Assembly: GCA_002702685.1 (NCBI GenBank)
Contig: PABD01000148.1
Span: 1 to 36,019, forward strand
DNA from: Planctomyces sp.
GTDB taxonomy: Bacteria; Planctomycetota; Planctomycetia; Planctomycetales; Planctomycetaceae
Direction: 5' to 3'
DNA: 36,019 nucleotides
Part shown: piece by piece, positions 17,943-19,445 of the stretch
Numbering within the stretch: position 1 is the first letter of the stretch
How the letters are laid out: each line of letters opens with the position of its first letter
Made by a program: the position numbers and the translations under genes
Notes under the pieces: model-generated
The model's database searches: none
What the model was told of the DNA's origin: nothing
The model's input: the letters and a program-made list of their open reading frames with translations, nothing else

Positions 17943-18002
17943 ATGAGTAATCAGCATCACGACCAGAACGACGAGCGGCCCTTTTTTCGAGACGATGAGT
18001 AA
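17943..18002 (+). CDS. 19-aa leader ORF coupled to the SEC-C gene
   Basis: A 19-codon frame ([19 protein letters not shown]) begins six bases after a perfect AGGAGG. It is polar and acidic with no membrane segment. Its last codons overlap the start of the SEC-C frame (ATGAGTAA shared in two frames), so ribosomes that finish it can restart on the next gene. It may be only a translation-coupling leader or a real micropeptide. Confidence 0.5.
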
Positions 18003-18162
18003 GCGTCGTCGTGGATTCCCGTCCGAGACACAAGTCGGACGGGGAGTGCGAATTGTCCACGGCGAGAAACAGCTGGAAGAAAAGCTGGGGAGGAACGACC
18101 TCTGCCCCTGTCATTCCGGTAAACGCTTCAAAAGATGTTGTCTGAAGAAAGGCTGCTTTTGA
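17995..18162 (+). CDS. 55-aa SEC-C zinc-motif protein
   Basis: This 55-residue basic protein begins MSKRRRGFP and ends in a clear SEC-C motif: [19 protein letters not shown] at about 31-49, with the CxC-x8-CC zinc ligands C37, C39, C48 and C49, plus a last Cys at 54. SEC-C motifs occur at the end of SecA and as small accessory modules that bind zinc and ribosomes or nucleic acid; here nothing else is attached. An in-frame stop at 17944-17946 and no other start codon fix the ATG at 17995. It has no strong ribosome site of its own and overlaps the 19-codon ORF, so translation is probably coupled. It is followed by an intrinsic terminator and then the kinase and Thg1-like genes. Confidence 0.7.
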
Positions 18163-18202
18163 TGGCGTGAACCGGGACCACTACTTTTAGACAGTGAATC
18201 AC

Positions 18203-18245
18203 AACAGCCCAACCGGTTCAGGGCATCGGTTGGGCTGTTTTATTT
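18203..18245 (+). terminator. intrinsic terminator between the SEC-C and kinase genes
   Basis: Perfect 13-bp arms AACAGCCCAACCG (18203-18215) and CGGTTGGGCTGTT (18227-18239) with an 11-base loop, followed by TTTATTT. It ends 12 bases before the ATG of the kinase gene, too close to leave room for a separate promoter, so kinase expression must come from read-through or from a promoter inside or before the hairpin. Confidence 0.85.
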
Positions 18246-18256
18246 GGGGCAGGCGA

Positions 18257-18697
18257 ATGGATGCGATCATCTTTATCGGACTACAGGCTTCGGGCAAATC
18301 GACATTTTACCGCGAACGGTTCTTCGACAAGCACGTGCGCATCAGTCTCGACCAACTGCGTACGCGATACCGTGAACAACGTATTCTCACCGCATGCCTC
18401 GAAACACAGCAACGTTTCGTGGTCGAAAACACGAATCCCCGGATTGCGGATCGAAAGAAGTATATCGACGTCGCACGGAAGGCCAACTACCGCGTTGTCG
18501 GGTATTACTTCCGGTCGCAGGTTTCGGAATGTCTCGCCCGCAATTCGGGTCGCAACAATCGAGTTCCGGACGTCGCCATCCTGGCAACGGCCGCGAAGTT
18601 GGAACTGCCTTCCATGGCCGAGGGCTTCGATGACTTGAAATACGTACGCCTTGGGGATTCCGGGTTTCTTATTGAGGATTGGAAGAATGAATTTTGA
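18257..18697 (+). CDS. P-loop polynucleotide-kinase-like protein (AAA_33)
   Basis: This 146-aa protein has the minimal T4-Pnkp-type 5'-kinase fold. Walker A is GLQASGKST at 8-16, a substrate-strand block ISLDQLRTRY is at 29-38, VVENTNPRIADRKKYIDVAR at 55-74 matches the vvDnTN...R..yi pattern of the kinase core, and the arginine-rich lid is CLARNSGRNNRVP at 92-104. Such kinases phosphorylate 5'-OH ends of RNA or DNA. The gene overlaps the Thg1-like gene by 11 bp, so the two proteins are probably made together. An RNA 5'-end repair role is inference: the kinase would supply the 5'-phosphate that Thg1-like enzymes need. The ATG with AGGCGA just upstream is preferred; the frame is open to 18194, but that part would be encoded by the terminator hairpin. 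Confidence 0.8.
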   Translation: MDAIIFIGLQASGKSTFYRERFFDKHVRISLDQLRTRYREQRILTACLETQQRFVVENTNPRIADRKKYIDVARKANYRVVGYYFRSQVSECLARNSGRNNRVPDVAILATAAKLELPSMAEGFDDLKYVRLGDSGFLIEDWKNEF

Positions 18698-19307
18698 TGA
18701 GTTCGACAGGAAGATGCGCGTTTTTGAAACAGCGTCTGACCAATGCGTGCTGCCGGAGATCTATATGGTGGCGCGCCTTGATGGACGCAGTTTCACACGA
18801 TTGACCAGGGAAGTCGCCCGGTTTGATGCTCCATTCGACGAGCGGTTTCGCGATTTGATGACCGAGACAGCGCGATCATTGATGACGTGCGGATTTCGAG
18901 TTCGTTATGCCTACACGCAGAGTGATGAAATCTCTCTGCTGCTTGATCGGGATGAAGCCCTGTTCGGACGCAAACTGCGAAAACTCAACTCGACCCTCGC
19001 GGGCGAAGCGAGTGCTCAGTTTTCTATTCGGCTCGGTCGACCTGCGTGTTTCGATTGTCGCATTTCCCAATTACCCAACCCGGAACTTGTCATCGACTAT
19101 TTCCGCTGGCGGAATGAAGATGCCGCTCGGAACGCGCTCAACGCCTGGTGCTACTGGACGCTCCGACGCAGTGGACGCGACCCGCAGACGGCGACCCGGG
19201 AAACGTTGGGTATGCCTGTCGCGGAAAAGAATGAACTGCTGTTCGGATTCGGCATCAACTTCAAAGACGTACCCGCCTGGCAGAAGCGGGGGACCGGTCT
19301 GTATTAG
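18687..19307 (+). CDS. Thg1-like 3'-5' RNA polymerase, ended early by an amber codon
   Basis: The 206-aa product belongs to the tRNA-His guanylyltransferase superfamily. It has VARLDGRSFTRLT at 28-40 (metal ligand D32), YTQSDEISLLL at 76-86 (D80/E81), the FDCRI strand at 122-126, YFRWRNEDAARNALNAWCYW at 138-157 and GFGINFKDVPAWQKRGTGLY at 187-206. The family adds nucleotides to RNA 5' ends in the 3'-5' direction; bacterial members repair truncated tRNAs. The frame is stopped by TAG at 19305-19307 directly after GLY, where relatives continue with an aromatic residue and a conserved tail. That tail is intact in frame for 45 more codons (19308-19445). The catalytic motifs all lie before the stop, so activity may be retained. 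It overlaps the kinase gene by 11 bp. Confidence 0.8.
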   Translation: MNFDEFDRKMRVFETASDQCVLPEIYMVARLDGRSFTRLTREVARFDAPFDERFRDLMTETARSLMTCGFRVRYAYTQSDEISLLLDRDEALFGRKLRKLNSTLAGEASAQFSIRLGRPACFDCRISQLPNPELVIDYFRWRNEDAARNALNAWCYWTLRRSGRDPQTATRETLGMPVAEKNELLFGFGINFKDVPAWQKRGTGLY

Positions 19308-19445
19308 GAAGAATACGACAAGCAGGGGACTGACCCACGAACCGGCGCGAGTGTCGTTTCCCGGAGACGGCGGATCTGTACGGACTTCGACCTCCCCTTG
19401 AAACATGCGTATGCGGACTGGATCGCCCGGCGTTTCCTGCTGTGA
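19308..19445 (+). pseudogene. in-frame C-terminal tail of the Thg1-like gene after the amber codon
   Basis: Beyond the TAG, the same frame reads EEYDKQGTDPRTGASVV, then SRRRRICTDFDLPLKHAYAD and WIARRFLL before a TGA at 19443-19445. This fits the tail of bacterial Thg1-like proteins (acidic start, PxTG turn, RRR cluster, DLP motif). With it the protein would be 252 aa, the normal length. The lack of further stops or frameshifts suggests a recent TGG-to-TAG change, a sequencing error, or stop-codon read-through. Confidence 0.7.

Follow-up and report, generated by a model that had tools for sequence, protein, structure and literature searches.

RNA repair systems are said to be the subject of a 2016 study by Burroughs and Aravind. 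Thg1-like 3'-5' polymerases (TLPs) preferentially repair 5'-truncated tRNAs, adding nucleotides in the 3'-to-5' direction after adenylylating the 5'-monophosphate (PMC3701042, PMC6471195). In Anantharaman, Iyer and Aravind (2010; PMC2904730), a polynucleotide kinase (PNK) is the most persistent neighbor of bacterial Thg1, RNA ligase and MACRO neighbors are also noted, and the logic of a kinase providing the 5' phosphate for Thg1 is proposed from gene neighborhoods. The window, i.e., the whole analyzed stretch of 36,019 nucleotides (contig 148 of a 4.3-Mb draft genome, 66% complete), holds a further instance of this pair with a truncated polymerase; hence, neither the pair nor its explanation is new. 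The features of the locus are as follows.

17943–18002, + strand: leader ORF with an AGGAGG ribosome-binding site, proposed to supply the N-terminal part of the SEC-C protein
17982–17988, + strand: proposed shift site 1, TTT TTT C, where a +1 shift would join the leader to the SEC-C frame
17995–18162, + strand: SEC-C ORF as called, 55 aa, ending in TTT TGA (PF02810, 1.5e-8)
18157–18190, + strand: proposed shift site 2, TTT TGA (18157–18162), and the +1-frame tail DGVNRDHYF* (18161–18190); seen in 47/48 copies, with variation biased to third codon positions
18203–18247, + strand: intrinsic terminator-like hairpin (15-bp stem at 18203–18239, 7-nt loop, T-rich tail), a possible attenuator
18257–18697, + strand: polynucleotide kinase, 146 aa (Pfam AAA_33, 3.7e-13)
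18687–19307, + strand: TLP, 206 aa, ending at an in-frame TAG at 19305–19307 (Pfam Thg1, 3.8e-33)
19308–19445, + strand: C-terminal coding remnant of the TLP past the stop, homologous to intact relatives

The ORFs and Pfam matches bear out the core of an earlier, sequence-only reading of this DNA, namely, a 146-aa kinase at 18257–18697 overlapping by 11 bp a Thg1-like ORF that starts at 18687; its other boundaries need revision. The end of the locus had been placed at 19445, across the in-frame TAG, whereas the window TLP is 206 aa long. The SEC-C gene does lie upstream in the same direction, but the 55-aa ORF, taken for a complete protein, is probably the middle part of a recoded gene starting at 17943; it is also just upstream of the kinase, but with a strong terminator standing between the two.

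For the kinase, whose Pfam domain is AAA_33, the PNK-3'Pase model ranks first in NCBIfam, far below its equivalog cut-off, and the closest solved structures are mammalian PNKP kinase domains (E 1e-21). The P-loop, catalytic Asp, and lid arginines of polynucleotide 5'-kinases of the PNKP/T4 Pnk type are all present, and these motifs (P-loop, D32, and lid R95-N96-R99) are kept in 29 kinase homologues. The window protein has Glu57 in the DNTNP segment, where nearly all relatives have Asp. The conserved motifs and the resemblance to nucleic-acid kinases argue for the T4-Pnkp-type assignment made earlier.

The TLP matches both Thg1 (PF04446) and, more weakly, Thg1C (PF14413, 7.8e-11), and retains the metal-binding carboxylates D32, D80, and E81; its family profile matches the archaeal TLP 5axk (4e-46) and the Bacillus thuringiensis TLP 4kgk. 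The C-terminal domain is incomplete: the Thg1C match covers only 3–75 of 116 positions, homology continues past the TAG to a TGA at 19443–19445, and the last ~45–50 residues of intact relatives (249–271 aa) are missing. The truncation is either a real mutation or an assembly error. Given the truncation and the kinase Glu57, the window copy may be nonfunctional or decaying, and, judged from its sequence, the pair in the window is probably impaired. The possibility that a suppressor tRNA recodes the stop, as happens in Methanosarcina, was considered and rejected, ARAGORN finding no CUA anticodon on 30 tRNA loci of the incomplete source genome (35 Rfam tRNA hits in all). Separately, a second, isolated C-terminal TLP fragment was observed in the same-genus genome G001 (L159/L036, 8755–8898), ~1 kb downstream of an intact pair. 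Closely spaced tRNA genes were seen on contig 5 of the source genome (2439–3449; L140, L143) and in the related complete genome G043 (1:5966565–5967853; L183); these arrays hold 7–10 tRNA genes, mostly with low scores and with anticodons duplicated elsewhere, and may serve a mobile element as spare tRNAs.

The kinase and the TLP are adjacent, co-directional, and conserved as a pair. Of the 198 genomes in the set of relatives (source genome included), 41 have Thg1 and 35 a member of the kinase family; 34 have both (the source genome and 33/197 other planctomycete genomes), seven have Thg1 alone, and one has the kinase alone, with a masked stretch exactly where the TLP continues. The Fisher p of this co-occurrence is 4e-30, uncorrected for shared ancestry. 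Thirty planctomycete Thg1 loci were fetched, the window among them; in 29 the kinase lies directly upstream on the same strand, mostly overlapping by the identical 11 bp. The TLP is of the close type in 28 of these 29 loci and divergent in one, as it is in the sole locus without a kinase.

More than 500 relatives come up when 84,980 species are searched by TLP similarity. Among the 80 best loci, the kinase adjoins the TLP in 68, many with the identical overlap, although this fraction is biased toward the subfamily of the window TLP, since the loci were picked by similarity to it. The 68 loci span Cyanobacteria, Bacteroidota, Pseudomonadota, Bacillota, Chloroflexota, and other phyla, with the kinase gene first; the remaining 12 have no adjacent kinase, in two cases because the contig starts there. 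Distances between kinases correlate with those between TLPs (Mantel r 0.75, 0/999 permutations, 87 loci). TLPs of phages and plasmids are mostly more distant (~28–39% identity), and two that were inspected have no kinase; plasmid TLPs of Deinococcus and Embleya have one, while that of Thiodictyon does not. On the Thiodictyon plasmid (L031, 8016–9774), a nucleotidyltransferase comes after the kinase-less TLP, and BREX-2 genes lie a few kb away. Absence of the pair from relatives had been named as the observation that would speak against it; the pair is instead present, co-occurring, and co-diversifying. Of the suggested three-gene adjacency in planctomycetes, the kinase–TLP part stands, while SEC-C as a strict partner does not, 27/48 SEC-C copies having none of the eight searched repair families nearby.

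In subsets of loci, the pair adjoins recognized repair genes: the RNA ligase Rnl (PF09414) followed by an HD-plus-kinase protein (HD-PNK); bacterial Pnkp (TIGR04075, 1460 bits); Hen1 (TIGR04074, 742 bits); RlaP (PF10127); and a NIF-type phosphatase. In the planctomycetes G096, G118, G179, and G185 one large island holds most repair families. None of the searched families Rnl, Hen1, and HD-PNK is detected beside the window SEC-C gene, and no Pnkp/Hen1 or Rnl system is seen there; the kinase and the TLP have no PADLOC match, leaving membership in a defense system unsupported. RNA ligase, HD-kinase, Pnkp, Hen1, or RlaP accompanies the pair in many relatives, so it is read as an RNA-repair module.

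Our main reading, held at a probability of roughly 0.7, is that the kinase and the TLP constitute one translationally coupled module for RNA 5'-end repair. Going by family membership, the substrates, catalysis, and order of steps would be as follows: the kinase would phosphorylate 5'-OH ends made by metal-independent ribonucleases; the TLP would adenylylate the 5'-phosphate and then add the missing nucleotides 3'-to-5' with the complementary strand as a template, e.g., in a tRNA acceptor stem; elsewhere, neighboring ligase, phosphatase, and nucleotidyltransferase modules may finish the repair. The earlier suggestion that the kinase feeds 5' phosphate to the Thg1 polymerase for RNA healing is still the best reading, favored by the conservation and the likeness to nucleic-acid kinases, although it loses its novelty to the 2010 study and meets a shortened TLP in the window.

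A role in G-1 addition to tRNA-His, with the kinase incidental, is suggested by the family name and the founding Thg1 activity; it is highly improbable, as the TLP family has ARNALN-like residues where human THG1 has HINN (profile alignment), Thg1 occurs in only about a fifth of the relatives, and the tRNA-His gene of G043, a relative with the pair, appears to encode G-1 opposite C73, so that adding G-1 is not the likely job of the TLP; in the 66%-complete source genome the tRNA-His gene was not found. A closer contender makes the pair an accessory of a full ligation pathway, in which the main task of the kinase would be to make ends ready for an RNA ligase, with the TLP replacing lost 5' nucleotides before sealing, the window pair being a leftover or using a ligase encoded elsewhere. 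The frequent order PNK-TLP, Rnl, HD-PNK in planctomycete relatives (an RNA ligase lies within a few kb of Thg1 at about a dozen planctomycete loci), the several Nostoc and Calothrix pairs lying between Hen1 and Pnkp, the Deinococcus pair near Hen1 and two nucleotidyltransferases, and RtcB on another contig of the source genome all point this way; yet most non-planctomycete loci have no detected ligase within 7 kb, and PF09414 has no match in the source genome, itself 66% complete, which leaves this contender possible but doubtful. The statement that no ligase is nearby is, accordingly, right for the window genome, while many relatives have one next door, and the version described as compact, with two enzymes, may be a reduced one.

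Closer to even odds, but still short of them, is decay of the window copy into a pseudo-operon. The in-frame TAG takes away a conserved end of the TLP, kinase position 57 has changed from Asp to Glu, the complete same-genus genome G002 has neither kinase, nor TLP, nor SEC-C gene, and G001 has the stray second TLP piece; against this, the kinase ORF and the active-site residues of the TLP are intact, and the TAG may be an assembly error of the draft. With many more genomes than the 2010 study had, the pair supports RNA repair rather than tRNA-His maturation as the role of bacterial reverse polymerases; the candidates for assay are planctomycete, cyanobacterial, and Bacteroidota pairs that are intact.

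Unexpectedly, the SEC-C gene looks recoded, and it is this part of the locus that merits further work. Among 48 oriented planctomycete copies, a leader ORF with a ribosome-binding site precedes the SEC-C frame in 46, often ending in DEQPFF-like residues and never in the SEC-C frame; 29 copies need a +1 shift to enter it and 17 need -1 (or +2). The 55-aa frame reaches TTT TGA in 40 copies, TTT CGA in six, and CTT TGA in one; the 48th reads TTTTGT and carries an internal stop. Thus, 47/48 copies have a prfB-like site, a slippery codon before the stop position (41 TGA, 6 CGA) with a conserved +1 continuation, the DGVNRDHYF-like peptide, whose variation falls mainly at third codon positions (entropy 0.54, 0.47, 1.13). 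An SD-like tetramer lies at most 13 nt upstream of the shift site in 40/59 copies, a raw count with no background. TTT accounts for only 30% of Phe codons in long ORFs of the window. In a frame-aware alignment of 62 copies, lineage-specific breaks, nearly all of the +1 type, fall at residues ~11–17, 26, 43, 61–62, and 67–72, the exact residue depending on the alignment; in some homologues from other classes of the phylum (L284, L286, L295–L297) the tail is in frame. Distant copies (L244, L245, L246, L285, L287, L289, L290, L292, L293) have breaks elsewhere, either following residue 26 or at the Phe that precedes KKCC. Rfam finds no known RNA family in the leader.

Taken together, these patterns make recoding of the SEC-C gene by +1 frameshifts likely. 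The window gene (17943–18190) appears to need two such shifts for one protein of ~81 residues comprising the leader, the SEC-C core, and the DGVNRDHYF tail. Sequencing error or general decay is unlikely, because some of the copies are from genomes assembled as a single contig and relatives have intact kinase and TLP genes next to SEC-C. Three small ORFs linked by translational coupling could dispense with frameshifting altogether, and would suit the 17/48 copies in which the leader frame is off by -1, the leader stop overlapping the SEC-C ATG as ATGA in those examined; we find this improbable, as seven copies have no SEC-C ATG and so cannot start there, no separate start is clear for the tail, which shows coding-type variation in the +1 frame and which some homologues carry in frame, and the break points move between lineages yet stay nearly always of the +1 type. 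A frame-shifted SEC-C gene seems not to have been described previously, and two surveys of frameshifting make no mention of SEC-C genes in the text searched.

An RNA-repair family (of eight models) is found near 21/48 SEC-C copies, nearly always downstream on the same strand; the first repair gene (kinase, Rnl, HD-PNK, RlaP, Hen1, or NIF) mostly starts ~200–500 nt after the SEC-C start. The other 27 copies have none of the eight families nearby and mixed neighbors, on which ground a strict partnership between SEC-C and the pair was rejected. Two copies (L251, L260) lie upstream of a gene resembling, by eye, a ribosome hibernation factor; that of L260 is interrupted by an internal stop, and its shift site is altered. 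In SEC-C-bearing pair loci the terminator stem ends ~17–35 nt before the kinase ATG (17 nt in the window), leaving little room for a separate kinase promoter. In the eight loci of this kind that were measured, the hairpin follows the normal SEC-C stop by 40–56 nt and the +1-frame stop by 10–28 nt; several other loci with SEC-C have +1 reading that enters or passes the hairpin. From these distances, a shifted ribosome could block the terminator. Terminators also stand 3' of SEC-C genes with no repair genes nearby, so this one may be ordinary. A general attenuator before all kinase genes was rejected, the hairpin occurring mainly in SEC-C-bearing planctomycete loci and rarely in other phyla.

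A rather unlikely extension is that the SEC-C gene preceding RNA-repair operons in planctomycetes combines obligatory recoding by at least two +1 shifts with sensing of translation trouble. Shortage of a tRNA or release factor, as after ribotoxin attack, would make ribosomes slip and finish the SEC-C protein; the slipped ribosomes would run toward or into the terminator, and transcription would enter the kinase–TLP or ligase genes. Recoding by itself is far likelier than this whole circuit; if the gene is indeed read through several +1 shifts, the position of SEC-C before RNA-repair operons would suggest how these operons sense damage.

Compared with known systems, the window kinase shares the P-loop, the conserved Asp, the DNTNP-type segment, and the lid arginines with the mammalian PNKP kinase domain and the T4 and bacterial Pnkp kinases; unlike them, it is a stand-alone protein of 146 aa with no fused phosphatase or ligase. 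The TLP has the same two domains and catalytic carboxylates as the B. thuringiensis TLP (4kgk) and 5axk, likewise with no HINN, but stops at residue 206 and is paired with a kinase. The PNK–Thg1 neighborhoods of 2010 agree in adjacency, the occasional RNA ligase, and the 5'-phosphate logic, while the truncated TLP, the recoded SEC-C gene, and the terminator are window features absent from that account as excerpted (PMC2904730). Kinase-based healing of ribotoxin-cut RNA, as proposed for the pair, is also found in the Pnkp1-Rnl-Hen1 RNA repair complex (PMC4411300), whose Pnkp, Rnl-type ligase, and Hen1 genes adjoin PNK-TLP in several relatives and are absent from the window. The SEC-C gene resembles prfB (release factor 2), known for a programmed +1 frameshift (PMC12421855), in its slippery pyrimidine run at UGA and +1 continuation, one copy having the identical CTT TGA; unlike prfB, the SEC-C copies mostly have TTT instead of CTT and up to three lineage-specific +1 break points in ~82 codons, so that reading through several +1 shifts, if true, would make this gene an extreme example of recoding in bacteria.
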